This document shows positions 17,609-25,327 of a stretch of DNA of 32,781 nucleotides, one piece after another. Origin of the DNA: Planctomycetia bacterium (lineage in GTDB: Bacteria > Planctomycetota > Phycisphaerae > Phycisphaerales > SM1A02); the NCBI GenBank assembly GCA_005792145.1, contig SXSS01000152.1:1-32781 (forward strand), in the 5' to 3' direction. A program made the position numbers and the translations under genes. Position 1 is the stretch's first letter, and each line of letters opens with the position of its first letter. A model generated the notes under the pieces. That model saw only the letters and a list, made by a program, of their open reading frames with translations. It did no database searches and was not told the DNA's origin.

Positions 17609-18406
17609 TTAGCGCGACCGAGAGGTGACTTTCGCCTTTGGCTTCGCTTTTACTTTTGACTTCGCGCTGGATTTTGCGCGTGGCTTTGCGCTCGGCTTGG
17701 GATGAGACTTGGCATGCTCGGCCGATATTGCCGCCGCTCCTCGTGGCTTCTTCTTTGCTTCGCGCTTGATGCGAGCCTCTTCAGCACGACCAGAATTATG
17801 AAACGCATCCGTCGCCGCAACGAGCGCGAAATGCATTTGCCGAGCGCGATCACTCTTGAATTTCTTGGCGAAAATTTCTGTCAGCAAACTGGGCTTCATA
17901 TCGTCAGGGAGCACCTCGTAATGCACCAACAGATCGATTGTTGTCTGGTCGATTGGCACCAATGCAACTTCGAAACCAAGCAACATCATGCGAGAAACTG
18001 CGTATGTTCCCATTCCCTCGAGATTCTCCAAGTAAATGCGAACGTCTCGCTTTGGCTTACCCACAAGCTGTTCCAAACTGACTCGGTGATGGCGACGGAA
18101 AAGATCAAACAATGTCATCCGCAATCTGCGCATACGCCCGAATCCATCGGGATATTTCAGTCCGATCGTCGTCACCATCTCTTCAACCAAGTTGACTCGG
18201 AATTCGTTGAAGTCGACATTTCGACTTCGCACGCGCTGCATAGCAGTATCGGCCATCTCGGTGGTTGCGTCATATAAGAGCGATGAGTGAATCAGCAACG
18301 CCGTCAAATCTGCGACATTTGGCTCTTCGGTACGCGCACGAGCGCTGTACTTCTTAACCAATGAATTGAGACGATTGATGTTGAACGCTGGTTTCTTCTC
18401 TGTCAT
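17609..18406 (-). CDS. HhH-GPD (endonuclease III-like) protein with Tyr at the catalytic Lys position and a basic tail
   Basis: A 265-residue protein whose core resembles endonuclease III/MutY base-excision glycosylases. The hairpin LENLEGMGTYAVSRM followed by VPIDQTTID matches the helix-hairpin-helix and Gly/Pro-rich-Asp loop. The conserved Asp is D153. The residue aligned to the catalytic lysine of Nth is Y135, 18 residues before the Asp, as in the family; Tyr at this site is known from a thymine/uracil mismatch glycosylase, so a monofunctional glycosylase or a non-catalytic DNA-binding role is possible. There is no iron-sulfur cysteine cluster. The last 30 residues are Lys/Ala/Ser/Pro-rich like histone H1 tails, suggesting nucleic-acid binding. 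The ATG at 18406 overlaps the rbfA stop (ATGA), so it is coupled to it. Confidence 0.7.
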   Translation of the reverse strand: MTEKKPAFNINRLNSLVKKYSARARTEEPNVADLTALLIHSSLLYDATTEMADTAMQRVRSRNVDFNEFRVNLVEEMVTTIGLKYPDGFGRMRRLRMTLFDLFRRHHRVSLEQLVGKPKRDVRIYLENLEGMGTYAVSRMMLLGFEVALVPIDQTTIDLLVHYEVLPDDMKPSLLTEIFAKKFKSDRARQMHFALVAATDAFHNSGRAEEARIKREAKKKPRGAAAISAEHAKSHPKPSAKPRAKSSAKSKVKAKPKAKVTSRSR

Positions 18407-18792
18407 GGGAGAGCCTCTTCAGTTGGTGGGATCAATTCGAATATCAATTGCGGCACGCGCCGCAGACTGGTGGTTTCGCGCAGCGATGATCGAAAAAAAC
18501 CGATCGCACTTCGCAAAGCCGCGAGCGAGAGCGGACCTCGATCTGCGGGAAGGACCGAGACCTTGATCCGAGCTGCCAATAAATCTGGACTGAGACGAAC
18601 TTCCTGTATGGAAACCATCCCCTGCAAACGCGGGTCGGATAGCCCTCGCACAATTCTGTCTTGAAGTGCGCGCTGAAGAACGCTTGCGACCTGAGCTGGG
18701 CGCGAACTTGGCGCTTCGTGCCGCGCAGTTCCATCCGAGCTGAACGAAACTCCAGATGGAAGTTTCGGTCCTTTTCCTCGACGTTCACGCAT
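18403..18792 (-). CDS. rbfA: Ribosome-binding factor A
   Basis: RbfA is a KH-fold protein that binds the 30S subunit and helps mature the 5' end of 16S rRNA. This copy has 129 residues, with a basic, unstructured N-terminus and the typical RbfA core: ASVLQRALQDRIVRGLSDPRL, SIQEVRLSPDLLAARIKVSVL and LRRVPQLIFELIPP. I start at ATG 18792, which overlaps the infB stop by 8 nt and has an AGGTGG Shine-Dalgarno-like sequence 5 nt upstream. A GTG at 18801 is also in frame. The order nusA-infB-rbfA is the classic one. Its stop overlaps the start of the HhH-GPD gene. Confidence 0.92.
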   Translation of the reverse strand: MRERRGKGPKLPSGVSFSSDGTARHEAPSSRPAQVASVLQRALQDRIVRGLSDPRLQGMVSIQEVRLSPDLLAARIKVSVLPADRGPLSLAALRSAIGFFRSSLRETTSLRRVPQLIFELIPPTEEALP

Positions 18793-21571
18793 TTCCGCCA
18801 CCTAGCGGCCGAACCGTGATCGTGCGATAGCACTCCAGCACGTCGCCCTCGCGGATGTCGTCGTATCCATTGATCTTCATGCCGCATTCGTTTCCAGAAC
18901 GGACTTCCTTTGCATCTTCTTTGAATCGCTTGAGTTGCTCGAGTCGGCGATCTTTTTCGATCACGATTCCATCTCTCGTCACGCGGATCTGCGCATTTCG
19001 CTCGATGACTCCGTCGGTGACATAACAACCTGCGATTGCCCCGACCTTCGTGATCTTGAAAACTGCACGAACATCTGCATGTCCAAGGACCTGCAACTTG
19101 ATCTCTGGTTCCAAGAGTCCGCGAACGGCCTTGTCCATATCATCAGTCAACTGATAAATGACTTCATAGAGTCGAATATCAATCTTGCGCACTTCAGCGA
19201 GTTGGCGCGACTTTGCGTTGCTTGTGACATTGAAGCCCACGATCACCGCGCCAGTCGTTGCCGCAAGTTCGACATCGCTTTCGTTGATTCCGCCAACGCC
19301 AGCATGCTTGATCGAGATGCTGACATCTTCTGCTTTGATGCGCCCAAGAACAACTTTGAGCGTCTCAACAGATCCTTGCACATCTCCCTTGACGATCAAC
19401 GGCAATTCCTTCTTCTTCGATTTCGCCATCGTCTCGAAAATATTGTCCAGCGTCACCTTTGGAGCGGAAAGTTCTCGATCTCGCTCGAATGCGCGGCGCT
19501 CAATCGCAGCCTGTTCGGCCGCGGCGAGACTGTCAACAACATAAAACTTATCGCCTGCATCCGGAAGCATATCGATGCCGGAAATGGCGATAGCTGCGGT
19601 TGGTTCGGCGTTTGCGATGCGCTCGTTGCGATCGCTCAGGATGTCGCGGACTCGACCAAATGCTCGGCCGACCACCACGAAATCGCCTCGCTTGAGACAA
19701 CCTTCTTGAACCAACAATTGCGCCACAGGTCCACGACCTTCTTCCATACGCGCTTCGAGCACACTTCCTTGAGCATGACCTCCCCAATCAGCCTTCAAGT
19801 CCAATACATCCGCTTGCAGCGCGATGGTTTCTAAAAGTTCTGGCAGACCAGTTCCTTTGAGTCCACTGACAAGCGCGACTTCGACTGAACCTCCCCATGG
19901 AACTGGGTTCAAATCATTCTTGGCGAGTTCGCCATAAATGCGTTGCAGATTCTTCTCATCGAATTCTGGACGATCAATCTTGTTGAGAGCGACAATCACG
20001 GAAACTTTCGCGGCTTTAATGTGATTGATGCTTTCGATGGTCTGTGGCATAAGCCCGTCAACTGCATCGATGACCAAGATGACGATATCTGTCACCTTCG
20101 CACCGCGCGCACGCATTGCCGTGAAGGCTTCGTGACCAGGCGTGTCGATGAATGTGATCATTCGCATTTGATCGCCAGCCTTGACTTCAACCTGAAATGC
20201 CCGAGTGGATTGAGTGATTCCGCCCGCTTCGCCTGCCGCGACATTCGTGCTGCGGATTCGGTCCAAGAGTGTTGTCTTGCCGTGATCAACATGTCCAAGA
20301 ATCGTGACAACTGCTGGACGAGAACGCTCGTCGGTTCTCGTTCGCGCTGCGAATCGTTCTTCGATTTCATCCGATGCGGTCTTCGCTTCGTCGATTTCGA
20401 TTTCAATATTGAATGCCATCATCAATTCAATGGATTGATCCGCATCGAGCGCCGTATTGATCGTGATTGGATTTCCCGCAAGCAGAGATTTCTTCATAAT
20501 CTCCGACATCTTCACGCCAGTCAGCTCAGAAAGTTCCTTCACCGAAACTGGATTAGGAACATGCACTGGACCTTGTGGCTTCGACACCACGGCTCGACCT
20601 TGCGGAGAGTTCGAAGGTCGCGTGGAAGTTCGGTGCTTGCGAAAGAAACCGTCGGCTTGCCCGATTCGACTTGCGCGCTCTTCAATATCTTTGTTTGAAC
20701 GCGAACCATCACGCGCTGGATCTGCTCGACCAGTTCTGCCTGTATCAGATGGACGGCGCTTCGATGGAGGCGATGCGCCTCGACGATTCGCTGGCTCACC
20801 CGCACCTGCGCCAGTGCCGATACTTGGACCACCAGTACGACCCATCGGAGGACGGTTGGCACCGAATTGACCGCCCGTTCGTGGGCGAGGCGCGGCGACA
20901 TTGTCGGCGGCTTCGACTCGAATGACTTTCGGCCCAGAAAGGCTTGTTTTCGTCGGTTGATCAAGCACTTGAGATGTTGGACGAGCGCGAACTGGTCGCG
21001 TCGGAACATTCATCGGCGCTGGAACAAAAGGCTTCGGCGGTGGAACAACAACCACAGGCTTGGGCGGCAGAACAGGAGCGACTGGCTTTGGTGGCGCGAC
21101 TGGAGCGTCAACAACTGAAGTTCCTCCATCAGTTCCCTCGCTCGATTGAATTTTCGCTTTCGCAGATAAAGTGGTCGCAGATGATTGCTTCGCCGCAACT
21201 TCGGTCGGGGCAATTGGCGTTTCAATGGTGACCGCGCCTGCACTCGCGGCAACAGAAGTTTCCTTGACCGATTTTGGCGCATCAGATGGCGCATCACCCG
21301 CCGCTTTCTTGCGCTTCGGCGCTGTCTTCTTAACACGCTCACGAATTCCAGCAACATCAACGCTAGCGGCTGTCTCCGCTCCAGTTGTGGAACCTGATCC
21401 ACCGAACCATTCCTTGATTGTCTCGGCCAATCCAATCGGGATCGATGCTTGTGGCGTCGTCACACCTTCAATGCCTTCGCTTATGCACTTCTCGATGATG
21501 TCCTTTGTGGGGACACCAAGCTCTTTAGCGACCTGCGTGATTCGGATTTTTTTGACTGTCTTAGTTGCCAC
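18785..21571 (-). CDS. infB: Translation initiation factor IF-2
   Basis: IF-2 is the GTPase that brings initiator tRNA to the 30S subunit and promotes 50S joining. The protein has 928 residues. An N-terminal IF2_N domain (RITQVAKELGVPTKDIIEKC) is followed by a long Pro/Ala/Lys-rich linker (about 70-330), a second IF2_N-like domain (PVSVKELSELTGVKMSEIMK), and the GTPase domain with G1 GHVDHGKT near residue 427, G3 DTPGHE and G4 NKID. Domains II to IV follow to the C-terminus, which ends YRTITVRPLGGGNA. The start is GTG 21571, with a GGAG Shine-Dalgarno sequence 6 nt upstream. It is 81 bp downstream of nusA and overlaps rbfA. Confidence 0.97.
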   Translation of the reverse strand: MATKTVKKIRITQVAKELGVPTKDIIEKCISEGIEGVTTPQASIPIGLAETIKEWFGGSGSTTGAETAASVDVAGIRERVKKTAPKRKKAAGDAPSDAPKSVKETSVAASAGAVTIETPIAPTEVAAKQSSATTLSAKAKIQSSEGTDGGTSVVDAPVAPPKPVAPVLPPKPVVVVPPPKPFVPAPMNVPTRPVRARPTSQVLDQPTKTSLSGPKVIRVEAADNVAAPRPRTGGQFGANRPPMGRTGGPSIGTGAGAGEPANRRGASPPSKRRPSDTGRTGRADPARDGSRSNKDIEERASRIGQADGFFRKHRTSTRPSNSPQGRAVVSKPQGPVHVPNPVSVKELSELTGVKMSEIMKKSLLAGNPITINTALDADQSIELMMAFNIEIEIDEAKTASDEIEERFAARTRTDERSRPAVVTILGHVDHGKTTLLDRIRSTNVAAGEAGGITQSTRAFQVEVKAGDQMRMITFIDTPGHEAFTAMRARGAKVTDIVILVIDAVDGLMPQTIESINHIKAAKVSVIVALNKIDRPEFDEKNLQRIYGELAKNDLNPVPWGGSVEVALVSGLKGTGLPELLETIALQADVLDLKADWGGHAQGSVLEARMEEGRGPVAQLLVQEGCLKRGDFVVVGRAFGRVRDILSDRNERIANAEPTAAIAISGIDMLPDAGDKFYVVDSLAAAEQAAIERRAFERDRELSAPKVTLDNIFETMAKSKKKELPLIVKGDVQGSVETLKVVLGRIKAEDVSISIKHAGVGGINESDVELAATTGAVIVGFNVTSNAKSRQLAEVRKIDIRLYEVIYQLTDDMDKAVRGLLEPEIKLQVLGHADVRAVFKITKVGAIAGCYVTDGVIERNAQIRVTRDGIVIEKDRRLEQLKRFKEDAKEVRSGNECGMKINGYDDIREGDVLECYRTITVRPLGGGNA

Positions 21572-21652: not shown

Positions 21653-22987
21653 TCACGATTTGGAGTTCTCCGATGAACCGAATCCAAGGATATTGTCCGC
21701 GGCTGCTTCGCTGCGCTGATCGGTTGAAACGGCGATATCTGAACCGCCGCCGAGCATTGCATCGACCACGGCTCCGTCTTCGGCCTGCTTCAATTCTGCG
21801 GCAGTGCGCTCAAGCAGCATTTCTTCAGCGACGACTTTGGCACGGTCAGAGCATGCATCGACCACCTTGGTCGCCAACTCCTCCGTCATTCCGCAATCGG
21901 AAACCAAACTGGTCTCGCCGATTTCTTCAACATCGAAAACGCTGATCATGCCAAGTGCGCCCATGCGATCAAGCATTTCATCCGTTGCGCCTTCCACTGA
22001 TTTCACAGCGGCCTGCAAGGTTTGCAATCCCTTTTCCAATTCTGGCGGAGTCAAAATATCGACGTCCCATCCAGTCAATCGCGCAGCAAGGCGCACATTC
22101 TGTCCACGACGGCCGATTGCCAGCGACAACTGATCATCGCGAACGATGATCGTCGCTCGTCCGAGTTCGAAGCACAAACTGACTTCTTCAACTTCAGCGG
22201 GCTTGAGCGCATTGGAGATCAGCACTTGGCTGGATTCATTCCAACGAACGATGTCGATCTTCTCGCCGCCGAGTTCGTCAACAATATTTCGGATGCGCGA
22301 ACCACGAACGCCGACGCATGCACCGACAGCATCGACTTTCGTATCCACTGAAGAAACCGCCAATTTCGTGCGGAATCCAGGTTCGCGGGACATCGCCTTG
22401 ATTTCAATCGTTCGCTCCGCGACTTCCGGAACTTCGGACTCAAAGAGCCGACGAATAAAATCAGGATGCGCACGGCTCATCACGATCTTGACCTGACTGC
22501 CCGCATCGCGGACATCAAGCAGAATGCAACGAACTCGATCACCTGCTTGAAATTGCTCGCCTGGAATCTGCTCACTTTTTGGCATAAAACCTTCGGTGCG
22601 TTCCAATTGCACAATCAATGCGTTGCCTTCGTAACGCTGCGCCACGCCTGTGACCAGTTCGCCTTGGCGCTTGGAATATTCGTCGAGGAGCGAAACTCTT
22701 TCGTTTTCACGGAATCGCTGAATCATCACCTGCTTGAAAGTTTGCGCTGGGATGCGTCCCAAACTCTCCAACGGAATGACTTCACGAGTTTGATCTTCAT
22801 TATTGCGCCAGAGCGAAATTCCACCCCCAAGGCGGTCGATCTCGCAACCAAATTCGTCTGGATCCTCTGAATTGAAGTGTTTCCTCGCGGCACTCACCAT
22901 GGCCAGTTCAAGGTCTTGAACCAAGAGTTCTCGGTCGATGTTTCGGTCACGGGCAACGGAGTCAAGCAGTCGGATGATGTCATTCAT
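21653..22987 (-). CDS. nusA: Transcription termination/antitermination factor NusA
   Basis: NusA binds RNA polymerase and nascent RNA, and affects pausing, intrinsic termination and antitermination. The 444 residues comprise the RNA-polymerase-binding N-terminal domain (MNDIIRLLDSVARDRNIDRE), an S1 domain (about 130-205, GELVTGVAQRYEGNALIVQL), and two KH domains (about 205-345, with VGACVGVRGSRIRNIVDELG and LSLAIGRRGQNVRLAARLTG). A short helix-hairpin-helix-like tail precedes an acidic C-terminus. ATG 22987 has AAGGA 8 nt upstream. It leads the operon nusA-infB-rbfA-HhH-yebC. No rimP gene precedes it. Its 5' leader carries a promoter, an extended RNA fold and an intrinsic terminator, which suggests control by premature termination, possibly by NusA itself. 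Confidence 0.97.
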   Translation of the reverse strand: MNDIIRLLDSVARDRNIDRELLVQDLELAMVSAARKHFNSEDPDEFGCEIDRLGGGISLWRNNEDQTREVIPLESLGRIPAQTFKQVMIQRFRENERVSLLDEYSKRQGELVTGVAQRYEGNALIVQLERTEGFMPKSEQIPGEQFQAGDRVRCILLDVRDAGSQVKIVMSRAHPDFIRRLFESEVPEVAERTIEIKAMSREPGFRTKLAVSSVDTKVDAVGACVGVRGSRIRNIVDELGGEKIDIVRWNESSQVLISNALKPAEVEEVSLCFELGRATIIVRDDQLSLAIGRRGQNVRLAARLTGWDVDILTPPELEKGLQTLQAAVKSVEGATDEMLDRMGALGMISVFDVEEIGETSLVSDCGMTEELATKVVDACSDRAKVVAEEMLLERTAAELKQAEDGAVVDAMLGGGSDIAVSTDQRSEAAADNILGFGSSENSKS

Positions 22988-23019
22988 TTGAGAGGTCCTT
23001 TCGAATTGTCACCGCGAAT

Positions 23020-23056
23020 AAAAAAGGTCATGATCGCCGCGGTAGCGTTCATGACC
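23020..23056 (-). terminator. Intrinsic terminator in the nusA leader (candidate attenuator)
   Basis: On the minus strand GGTCATGA (23056-23049) pairs perfectly with TCATGACC (23033-23026). A T/T mismatch and three more base pairs lie inside, leaving a 7-nt loop. Six T follow directly (23025-23020). This is a textbook rho-independent terminator, placed 32 nt before the nusA start and downstream of the promoter at 23320-23292, so most leader transcripts should end here unless readthrough occurs. The first two bases of its 5' arm also belong to the closing helix of the leader fold. Confidence 0.85.
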
Positions 23057-23285
23057 CGTCCGACTGCGCTCGGCTGATCGATCAACCCATTTGGGTCTCC
23101 GACCAAACGATCGCCTTTGCCGAAACAAAACGCGGATGGACGCCAAAATGCGTCATACGCGGTTTCGGAATGCCGATTCGATACGAGTCCAAAAAATACG
23201 ATGAAATAAATTCGTAGACATGGTCGTTCTCAAAGTGCGACTGACAAAGGACGGACGGGCACCCGTGGAGGCCATCCCCACGGGA
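23020..23285 (-). ncRNA. Structured nusA leader RNA (candidate cis-regulatory or stand-alone RNA)
   Basis: The transcript predicted from the promoter has no convincing gene before nusA but strong nested pairing. A 7-bp hairpin forms at its extreme 5' end (23284-23278 with 23268-23262). Helix P1 pairs 23259-23252 with 23062-23055 (8 bp, CCCGUCCG). Helix P2 pairs 23250-23245 with 23119-23114 (6 bp, CCUUUG). A long hairpin at 23168-23120 stacks directly on P2 with arms of 7, 4, 2 and 5 bp interrupted by small bulges. Two small hairpins (23241-23223, 23216-23197) lie inside P2. Between P2 and P1, 23107-23085 can form two competing hairpins. The intrinsic terminator follows. It resembles no Rfam class I know (not SRP RNA, RNase P, tmRNA or obvious 6S RNA). 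This RNA is inferred, not observed. Confidence 0.6.
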
Positions 23286-23291
23286 GGGGCA

Positions 23292-23320
23292 ATTATAGCG
23301 TGACAAAGGCTTTTTTTCAA
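23292..23320 (-). promoter_or_regulatory. Near-consensus sigma-70-type promoter for the nusA leader and operon
   Basis: On the minus strand, TTGAAA (-35, 23320-23315) and TATAAT (-10, 23297-23292) are separated by exactly 17 nt. It is the best promoter match in the window. The expected start near 23285 falls one base before the 5'-terminal hairpin of the leader RNA, which agrees well. It lies about 300 nt before the nusA ATG. Confidence 0.85.
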
Positions 23321-23356
23321 GTGACTCCCACATTCAAGAGCAGATTCGCTCATAGA

Positions 23357-25327
23357 ATGCTTGAAATGCGCTTGGCACTATTCACTTTGTTCGCAGCGAT
23401 TTGTATGGGGAATGCGGCGATGGCGCAGGACGGAGCGAGAGATTCTGCGGATGTCGTCAAAATTCAAGCGATTCCTGCGATGCAAGCTGTCTCTGCGGGA
23501 GCCGACCTCCCTGTTGCAATCGTGTTGGAAATCAGCCCTGGTTGGCATATTTGGACCAACGATCGCATTGGAAAGGGTGATGCCGCGAATGGTATTGCCA
23601 CATTTGAAGGCGCGGTTTTCACTTCAATTCAAGCATCAAACGTATGGAAAGTTGTTCGTGCAGCGAGCGCAAGCAAACCCGAGTGGCTGACAACTCAACC
23701 GAGCGATTCTTTCACCGAAGTGCGTGTGCAGTGGCCCGAATTTCATCCTGTGAAAGCGGACGTTGGCGATGGCATTCAAACCTATCCAGTCTTTGAGGGA
23801 CAAGCTGTCATCTTTGTGCCATTTTCCATAGCGCCCGATGCGCCACTGGGGCCGCAGACAATTGTTTTCAAACTCGAATTTCAAGCGTGTACAGCTACGA
23901 ATTGCGTCGCTCCTTCGACTGTCGAAGTTTCGATGGAGGTTGAAGTCAAAGCAGGCACAGCGAGCGGTGCGCCACCTGCAATTTTCGCGGAATTCGATTC
24001 TGAAATCTTTTCGCAGATTCATTCTGGAATTGCCCCATCCGGGATCATCCAATTTAATTTCTTTGATTGGGATTTTTCTATCGATCCAAATGGAGGCGGC
24101 TTCTTGCTTGTCTTGATCATCGCTGCCACTGGCGGACTCTTGTTGAACTTCACCCCATGCGTTTTGCCTGTGATTCCACTGAAAATCATGGGTCTTTCGC
24201 GTATCGCCGGAAATCGCCGACGCTGCTTATTGTTGGGCGCAGCGCTTTCGATTGGTGTGGTCATCTTCTGGATCTGCTTGGGACTCGCAGTCGCGCTTCT
24301 CAGCGGATTCACCAGTGCGAGTCAACTCTTTCAATATCCGCTCTTCACAGTCACAGTTGGATTGATCATCGCGTTGATGGCGGTGGGAATGTGCGGGTTC
24401 TTCTCGATTCAACTTCCGCAATCAATTGCAGGAATTGATTTTCGACATGACACGATCGCTGGTTCAATTGGATTTGGCGTGATGACCGCAGTGCTGTCCA
24501 CTCCTTGCACTGCGCCTTTGATGGGTGCGGCGGCGGCTTGGGCTGCGACACAAAATCCGTGGGTTGTGTTCTTGGTTTTTGGATCGATCGGATTTGGAAT
24601 GGCGTTGCCCTATTTCATACTCAGCGCATTTCCACAAATGGTCAGCCACGTTCCAAAGAGCGGTCCCCCAAGTGATGTTGTCAAGCAAACTATGGGACTT
24701 CTGCTCTTGGCGGCTGCGGCATATTTTGTCGGAGCTGGTCTCGCCGGGTTGCTGGTTGATCCTCCAACTCCTCCGACCAATGACTACTGGTGGATCGTGT
24801 CAGCGCTGGGAACAATCGCAGGATTGTGGCTGTGCTGGCGCACGCTACAAATTACAAAAAGCGTCAAATTCCGCTGCATTTTCGGCTCTCTTGGAATTGC
24901 GATCGCCGCCATCAGCGTCGGTGTCGGATTTCAATTCAGTGACGATGGCATAATCAAATGGGTTTTCTATACCCCCGCTCGCCTCGACACCGCGCTCAAG
25001 AGTGGTGATGCAATCATGATCGATTTCACCGCGGAGTGGTGTTTGAATTGCAAAACACTTGAGAAGACGGTGCTAGAAAGTTCCAGTGTGCTTGCTCGAC
25101 TCAAGGCTGGAGGAATTCAATCGGTCAAAGTTGACCTGACTGGAAACAACATCGATGGCCGAGCATTGCTGAAGAAGTATGACCGAGTAACGATTCCTCT
25201 GCTTGTCATTCTCGATCCAGATGGCAATGAGATTTTTAAGAGCGATGCGTATTCACCATCTGAAGTTGTTAAGGCGCTCAACGATGCGACCAGCCAAAAT
25301 GAAACTCCGCATTCGAAAACCAACTGA
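23357..25327 (+). CDS. dsbD: DsbD-type thiol:disulfide interchange protein
   Basis: DsbD carries reducing power from cytoplasmic thioredoxin across the inner membrane to periplasmic proteins such as DsbC and the cytochrome c maturation system. The protein has a signal peptide (MRLALFTLFAAICMGNAAMA), an N-terminal DsbD-alpha-like periplasmic domain (about 30-220), a transmembrane domain of about eight helices (about 245-545) and a C-terminal thioredoxin domain with C562 and C565 in EWCLNCK. The two membrane cysteines are C268 in NFTPCVLP and C384 in STPCTAP, as in DsbD. The start could be ATG 23357 or 23366; the GTG at 23300 would add an unnecessary N-terminus. It ends with a TGATG overlap with the next gene. 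Confidence 0.92.
   Translation: MLEMRLALFTLFAAICMGNAAMAQDGARDSADVVKIQAIPAMQAVSAGADLPVAIVLEISPGWHIWTNDRIGKGDAANGIATFEGAVFTSIQASNVWKVVRAASASKPEWLTTQPSDSFTEVRVQWPEFHPVKADVGDGIQTYPVFEGQAVIFVPFSIAPDAPLGPQTIVFKLEFQACTATNCVAPSTVEVSMEVEVKAGTASGAPPAIFAEFDSEIFSQIHSGIAPSGIIQFNFFDWDFSIDPNGGGFLLVLIIAATGGLLLNFTPCVLPVIPLKIMGLSRIAGNRRRCLLLGAALSIGVVIFWICLGLAVALLSGFTSASQLFQYPLFTVTVGLIIALMAVGMCGFFSIQLPQSIAGIDFRHDTIAGSIGFGVMTAVLSTPCTAPLMGAAAAWAATQNPWVVFLVFGSIGFGMALPYFILSAFPQMVSHVPKSGPPSDVVKQTMGLLLLAAAAYFVGAGLAGLLVDPPTPPTNDYWWIVSALGTIAGLWLCWRTLQITKSVKFRCIFGSLGIAIAAISVGVGFQFSDDGIIKWVFYTPARLDTALKSGDAIMIDFTAEWCLNCKTLEKTVLESSSVLARLKAGGIQSVKVDLTGNNIDGRALLKKYDRVTIPLLVILDPDGNEIFKSDAYSPSEVVKALNDATSQNETPHSKTN

Follow-up and report, generated by a model that had tools for sequence, protein, structure and literature searches.

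It has long been asked how cells adjust the levels of IF2 and NusA to their translation machinery. Autoregulation of the E. coli operon and a conserved rimP-leader terminator have been described (PMC2965389), a sensor has not. The window analyzed here (the whole stretch of 32,781 nucleotides) carries nusA, infB, and rbfA as an operon, in which nusA, and not rimP, is the first gene and is directly preceded by a structured leader. The question raised by this locus is what that leader does. A preliminary description had offered two roles, a cis-regulatory element of the nusA-infB-rbfA operon or an independent non-coding RNA. From the comparison of leader sequences and computed folds, we propose that the leader is a translation-coupled, ribosome-gated transcription attenuator of this operon, a reading to which we assign a probability of roughly 0.6. 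The features on which the argument is built are collected in Table 1.

The leader RNA upstream of nusA

The nusA promoter matches the consensus at 11 of 12 positions and is present where the preliminary description had placed the best promoter of the window, on the minus strand, being the sole minus-strand site listed between 22000 and 24500. Its weight comes from this quality and from its conservation in the genus, not from the number of sites, as the scan yielded two sites over both strands versus a shuffle mean of 1.8. From its sequence, the promoter is predicted to yield a leader of ~265 nt, and among the 76 leaders for which a mini-ORF was found and a terminator accepted, 62 have a promoter scoring at least 8.5 that would give an RNA of 206-360 nt. 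Because no other promoter is listed, transcription of nusA must pass the leader terminator unless an unrecognized promoter exists. The gene upstream of the leader is divergent and DsbD-like; its listed GTG start (23300; window 23300-23360, plus strand) falls within the nusA promoter, and the true start of this ORF is probably further in.

The RNA from 23285 to 23020 has a minimum-energy fold of -109.8 kcal/mol (z -4.88). Its shuffled versions average -86.95, and not one of 200 reaches so low an energy. Both long-range helices then drawn, the 8-bp closing helix (P1) and the 6-bp helix (P2), are found in the sequence and in the minimum-energy fold, with the consensus fold moving P2 slightly. The intrinsic terminator just before nusA is likewise in place, with stem arms at 23056-23049 and 23033-23026 followed by six T, and its stem ends 38 nt from the nusA ATG. 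It is absent from the list of a consensus scan that allowed loops of 3-8, probably due to its longer loop. The extent of the element has to be amended: the promoter, helices, and terminator lie as first described, while positions 23016-23011, past the end originally given, also belong to it as one half of a pseudoknot.

Table 1. Positions of the nusA leader features and of the operon genes in the window
Feature	Positions	Strand	Basis
Promoter TTGAAA-17-TATAAT of the nusA leader	23292..23320	-	Promoter scan; kept in most genus-alignment rows
5′-terminal hairpin CCCGTGG...CCACGGG; hairpin kept, sequence changes in genus relatives	23262..23284	-	Fold, genus alignment
P1 closing helix, 5′ strand (CCCGUCCG); both uORFs lie inside P1	23252..23259	-	Folds
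P2 helix, 5′ strand (CCUUUG)	23245..23250	-	Minimum-energy and consensus folds
SD-like GAGA of uORF1	23231-23228	-	Sequence
uORF1, 22 codons (MSTNLFHRIFWTRIESAFRNRV-stop); stop codon within hairpin A	23153..23221	-	Sequence, genus leaders
Hairpin A (CGCGUAUGACGC...GCGUCCAUCCGCG), in the block matching the most distant genus members; contains uORF1 stop	23131..23161	-	DNA search, alignment, consensus fold
P2 helix, 3′ strand (CAAAGG)	23114..23119	-	Minimum-energy and consensus folds
Hairpin B; contains SD and start codon of uORF2	23066..23114	-	Covariation test
Shine-Dalgarno (SD) GGAG of uORF2	23097..23100	-	Sequence
uORF2, minimal ORF AUG GGU UGA (start-X-stop)	23082..23090	-	ORF-length and spacing counts, sequence
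P1 closing helix, 3′ strand (CGGACGGG); last two G double as terminator base	23055..23062	-	Folds
Intrinsic terminator GGUCAUGA...UCAUGACC UUUUUU	23020..23056	-	Sequence, leader comparison
Terminator loop ACCGCG, pseudoknot 5′ half	23038..23043	-	Covariation test
CGCGGU 3′ of the U-tract, pseudoknot 3′ half; only in read-through RNA	23011..23016	-	Covariation test
nusA, first operon gene	21653..22987	-	Pfam NusA_N, KH_5
infB (IF2)	18785..21571	-	Pfam IF-2
rbfA	18403..18801	-	Pfam RBFA

A DNA search over 61 genomes detects this region in 17, each a member of the same genus (17 of its 19 genomes). A covariance model built from nine of these genus sequences, and searched with strict filters under which weak matches are lost, finds the leader in 22 of 101 genomes, comprising 18 of the 19 genus members and a single representative of each of four further genera. 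Every matched genome has just one match (whole-genome search, E up to 0.001), and all 22 are upstream of nusA. The upstream neighbor of nusA differs between relatives (the five scanned being DsbD-like below the Pfam cut-off, FliM, UDP-sugar dehydrogenase, semialdehyde dehydrogenase, and one without a match), so the leader travels with nusA and not with the upstream gene. Of the two roles first offered, the cis-regulatory element is therefore the one supported, by the position of these matches, the changing neighbor, the lack of another listed minus-strand promoter, and the covariation of the helices, and the independent RNA becomes the less likely. A trans-acting RNA of ~265 nt with its own terminator, where nusA is expressed by leak-through, would account for the dedicated promoter, the terminator, and the high degree of structure, but it would leave nusA without a listed promoter of its own, would have to accommodate conserved ORFs in its interior, and would find itself before nusA in every model match while the other neighbor varies; we consider it very improbable.

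In a consensus fold of nine genus sequences, 11 of the 73 pairs show double changes, seen in one or more of the nine. Hairpin B is paired in 88.8% of cells, with both-side changes at 9 of its 19 pairs among 18 genus sequences, and its pairing and covariation score are each unmatched in 500 shuffles; a one-column shift of the partner lowers pairing to 39-45%, and three of the five inner pairs, as drawn, are broken in four rows. The terminator and pseudoknot together are 98.3% paired, with double changes at 6 of 17 pairs in 14 leaders, and the six ACCGCG/CGCGGU pairs of the pseudoknot are all kept in 14 of 14 leaders, three of them with double changes. These pseudoknot pair counts come from 14 near leaders, where L041, L042, L045, and L046 were left out for want of a clear arm, L031 was added, and three rows were shortened. 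Counts over leaders, here and below, are not independent, as the sequences are related. Further pair types in the terminator and pseudoknot test are not above shuffles (454 of 500 reach the observed number), and by duplex-energy permutation the pseudoknot signal is weak, at z -1.9 in 17 near leaders (62 of 2000 permutations reach it) and 0.3 in 56 others. As it requires RNA made past the terminator, the pseudoknot can act only on read-through transcripts.

Covariation is seen in hairpin B and in the terminator with its pseudoknot, and not in the nine P1 closing pairs, which have no both-side changes in the nine-sequence fold. P1 hardly varies within the genus, so that genus covariation neither supports nor opposes it. 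In a permutation test, the leader's own P1 partner beats those of other leaders in 48 non-genus leaders (0 of 2000 permutations as good) and in 14 genus leaders (24 of 2000), yet folding places P1 above 0.5 in just 16 of those 48 non-genus leaders.

The statement that this RNA has no known match also stands: Rfam yields nothing in 22900-23400, even with E allowed up to 10, and nothing at gathering score in the window. In 20 loci with related leaders, Rfam (6S, tmRNA, riboswitch, T-box, and others) gives no match at gathering score, and in eight loci of other orders or classes its 11 matches are all below gathering scores. The rimP-leader family RF01770 has no match over cut-off in 12 genomes searched, with weak scattered matches only and none at nusA. 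The bacterium's own genome (G000, ~90% complete) has a tmRNA on contig C99 and no Rfam match for 6S RNA, the model of which matches only 5 of 14 control genomes, so that this negative carries little weight.

Two short open reading frames in the leader

The preliminary description had found no credible gene in this region, a claim that has to be revised, as the leader holds two tiny ORFs, of which one is a start-X-stop ORF found across the order sample. This sample was drawn from the nusA upstream regions of the 95 of 101 genomes with a nusA match (77 non-genus and 18 genus leaders) and, having been gathered via nusA, cannot show absence of the element elsewhere. The leader motif is visible by eye as RUG-NNN-URR behind GGAG or GAGG, that is, a single codon between a start and a stop codon. 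When the SD set is widened, an SD-led start-X-stop ORF is found in 81 of the 95 leaders (64 of 77 outside and 17 of 18 inside the genus), compared with 1 of 95 on the opposite strand (1 of 77 and 0 of 18). Six alternative distances between start and stop (0-6 nt) give 1-11 of 77 outside the genus and 0-3 of 18 inside it. An exact-length test with a narrower SD set gives an ORF of two sense codons in 51 of 77 non-genus leaders (shuffle mean 2.9, maximum 6) and in 17 of 18 genus leaders (shuffle mean 0.5, maximum 3). The start-X-stop ORF is also concentrated in the leader, occurring there in 61 of 73 non-genus and 15 of 16 genus cases, versus 2 of 73 and 1 of 16 (3 of 89 in total) in a control region 631-1000 nt upstream of nusA. 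The strict call is missed in 14 of 95 leaders, among which L054, L062, and L073 have the ORF behind GGTG or AGGTG, and L032 has CUG in place of AUG. The central codon takes 22 different forms over 61 non-genus leaders, with ACC in 19. One leader, L120 (from G086), has the uORF2 block (GGAGCGCGCCATGACCTGAGCGCG) twice, 389 and 308 nt before nusA.

The identity of the flanking triplets bears on whether this is an ORF. Among the 77 non-genus leaders, holding UGA as the third triplet gives AUG as the first in 39, GUG in 8, UUG in 7, and CUG in 2. Holding AUG as the first gives UGA as the third in 39, UAA in 5, UAG in 4, and UGG in 2, with other U-initial triplets at 3 or fewer each. In a looser tally, UAA (7) and UAG (6) are not above the commonest other triplets (up to 9). 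These preferences run in the direction expected of start and stop codons and fit such a reading, with few alternatives and modest numbers. Should RUG-NNN-URR be an RNA structural motif and not an ORF, its location in a covarying hairpin, its pairing with downstream sequence in other genera (z -4.8), and the dominance of AUG and UGA with few alternatives would all fit. We give this explanation little credence, given the SD at normal spacing, the greater tolerance of GUG/UUG and UAA/UAG than of CUG and UGG, and the occurrence of AUG-stop in its place in other classes.

Beyond the order, minimal ORFs become less frequent. Among 41 leaders of other orders of the class, an ATG-started, SD-led ORF of two codons is found in 12 (shuffle mean 0.72), of one codon in 4 (0.81), and of three codons in 4 (0.79), where 0 of 200 shuffles reach any of these values; allowing GTG and TTG gives 16 of 41 versus 3-10 of 41 at other sense-strand spacings, a weaker contrast than within the order. 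Four of the 19 leaders from other classes have ATG-stop (shuffle mean 0.39; 0 of 200), two of these four being near-identical, and 1 has ATG-X-stop, which is chance level. By these counts the minimal ORF in the nusA leader extends past the order, but sparsely. Bare AUG-UAG start-stop ORFs after an SD-like sequence were observed in the nusA leaders L140, L141, L142, L191, L192, L196, and L198.

The longer uORF1 is ATG-started in 13 of 14 genus leaders, where it has 17-22 codons and ends at the hairpin A UGA, and the fourteenth is cut by a contig end. Its frame is open for at least 40 codons back from the stop in 11 of the 14, beyond the predicted RNA start. Two longer ORFs were considered as proteins of this transcript and rejected: a 66-aa ORF (23353-23153), which is the uORF1 frame extended upstream, and an 83-aa ORF (23333-23082), which ends at the uORF2 stop. 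Both begin before the promoter and so are not makeable from the leader transcript. Outside the genus, SD-led ORFs of 14, 15, and 16 codons are found in 14, 9, and 10 of 77 leaders, versus 1.7-1.8 in shuffles, a second length peak that we identify as uORF1.

Competing helices and proposed ribosome-gated attenuation

The leader places an SD-led ORF upstream of an intrinsic terminator, an arrangement expected of ribosome-mediated attenuators. In 79 of the 80 leaders with both called, 23-114 nt separate uORF2 from the terminator downstream, where the terminator was searched only within about 190 nt of uORF2. Many leaders of the order sample share, by eye, a terminator stem of the form GG-Y-CACG...CGUG-R-CC, and in the order leaders with mini-ORF and terminator both called, the terminator stem ends 36-267 nt before nusA. 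Two leaders, L062 and L067, have A/C-rich repeats of CAACAACTC between the terminator and nusA, just before the nusA start, which may aid nusA translation.

In computed folds of 14 of 14 genus leaders, P1 is mutually exclusive with the two terminator pairs that adjoin the U-tract. The genus mean probability of the terminator base pairs is 0.37 in the free RNA versus 0.96 with the 5′ strand covered, where the mask (TSS+18 to +78) includes the P1 strand and thus shows competition, not the effect of a ribosome on uORF1. Outside the genus, the terminator base gains more than 0.3 under this mask in 10 of 48 leaders. The terminator in equilibrium folds is unaffected by a ribosome-footprint mask at uORF2, so that these folds give no route by which uORF2 would act on it. 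The model makes no use of an antiterminator that pairs the uORF2 segment with the 5′ arm of the terminator (CCGUGACC with GGUCACGG), which is good in some leaders but not general, and uORF2 masks are without effect; pairing of uORF2 with this arm has z -3.0 outside the genus and 0.1 inside, with other segment pairs ranging from -4.8 to +3.5.

We infer that ribosomes within the P1 domain hinder P1 closure. In the mechanism that we propose, ribosomes would load on uORF1 and park on uORF2, keeping the enclosed RNA from compacting, whereupon P1 would fail, the terminator would zip fully, and the operon would be turned down. When initiation is poor, P1 would close and the terminator base would fray, allowing RNA polymerase to read into the genes for NusA, IF2, and RbfA. 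With one variable codon between its start and stop, uORF2 would report initiation (and release), not amino-acid supply. We further infer the direction of the attenuator and its link to IF2, choosing the direction in which more initiation gives more termination because it provides IF2 homeostasis; the rise of IF2 in E. coli after a shift to cold would fit this choice (reported in PMC6511841). After read-through, the terminator loop can pair with sequence before the nusA RBS, where it may tune nusA translation or mRNA stability. A more specific and tentative proposal, for which we would accept somewhat less than even odds, is that the start-X-stop (elsewhere start-stop) ORF is a dedicated translation-initiation sensor kept across the order and beyond, where its occupancy by ribosomes would gauge initiation-competent ribosomes and IF2 and set transcription of the genes for IF2, NusA, and RbfA by attenuation.

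That folding gives no effect of uORF2 on the terminator, and that the pseudoknot exists only in read-through RNA, would also suit tiny ORFs that act on the translation or stability of nusA mRNA (ribosome parking against nucleases, or reinitiation) and not on termination, which is how the two-codon minigenes of LEE1 and axe-txe are reported to work (PMC8708949). We regard this as unlikely, though worth keeping in view, as a site before the terminator in 79 of 80 leaders is an odd one for an element needed only after read-through. Under ribosome-gated attenuation, initiation sensing becomes directly testable through the codons of uORF2 with termination as the readout.

Relation to known leaders, minigenes, and attenuators

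Leader-peptide attenuators of the trp and pyrBL type combine a leader ORF with a terminator. The nusA leader differs from them in having no regulatory codon run, and the X codon of uORF2 varies freely. Closer in genomic position is the rimP-leader, a conserved terminator before rimP-nusA-infB for which no larger element is described and feedback by the operon or NusA is proposed (Naville and Gautheret 2010, PMC2965389; RF01770). The two are alike in their conserved-sequence terminator before a nusA-infB operon, the one with feedback proposed, while the leader described here has in addition ~200 nt of conserved structure and two uORFs, and its conserved stem GGGUCAUG...CAUGACC is a different motif from the GGGc...gCCC stem of the rimP-leader. 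Five leaders of other orders or classes (L140, L148, L184, L190, and L193) have, by eye, GUGGG...CCCAC-like or GUGGAAA...UUUCCAC terminators reminiscent of rimP-leaders, where Rfam makes no call.

By analogy, NusA (or IF2 or RbfA) might bind the conserved terminator and leader and raise termination, with the tiny ORFs only tuning access. The terminator stem sequence appears conserved by eye over the order sample, and NusA feedback has been proposed for rimP-nusA-infB leaders (PMC2965389) as well as for Streptococcus agalactiae (PMC4448216), but gating by a protein leaves the retention of the start-X-stop ORF unexplained. We judge it unlikely, though worth weighing, and compatible with ribosome-gated attenuation.

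By sequence, uORF2 is a candidate two-codon minigene, as an SD-led start-X-stop ORF in a leader. The minigenes in the EHEC LEE1 leader and the axe-txe operon are reported to act in cis on a neighboring gene (PMC8708949); they share with uORF2 the SD-led AUG-X-stop ORF in a leader, and differ in serving the translation or stability of one gene, whereas uORF2 recurs over the order sample, before a terminator, and together with uORF1. Start-stop sites reported from Campylobacter ribosome profiling (and from E. coli as cited there) similarly span one to three codons and may be occupied by ribosomes, the 18 Campylobacter sites being described as internal and out of frame (PMC11955535). Searches of the literature accessible to us, in part as excerpts, on nusA leaders, uORFs, Planctomycetes, start-stop ORFs, and two-codon minigenes yielded no such nusA-leader RNA and no start-X-stop ORF before nusA; a start-X-stop ORF is much too short for gene finders to report, and the leader is without an Rfam family. 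A recurrent two-codon ORF of no particular coding content, placed ahead of a terminator over an order, would be a clear instance of an ORF serving only as a landing site for ribosomes. As far as these sources go, none of the rimP-leader, the two-codon minigenes, and the start-stop sites unites a nusA attenuator with a start-X-stop ORF that recurs. While the uORF-bearing attenuator is a known kind, the sensing of initiation is a possible new principle.
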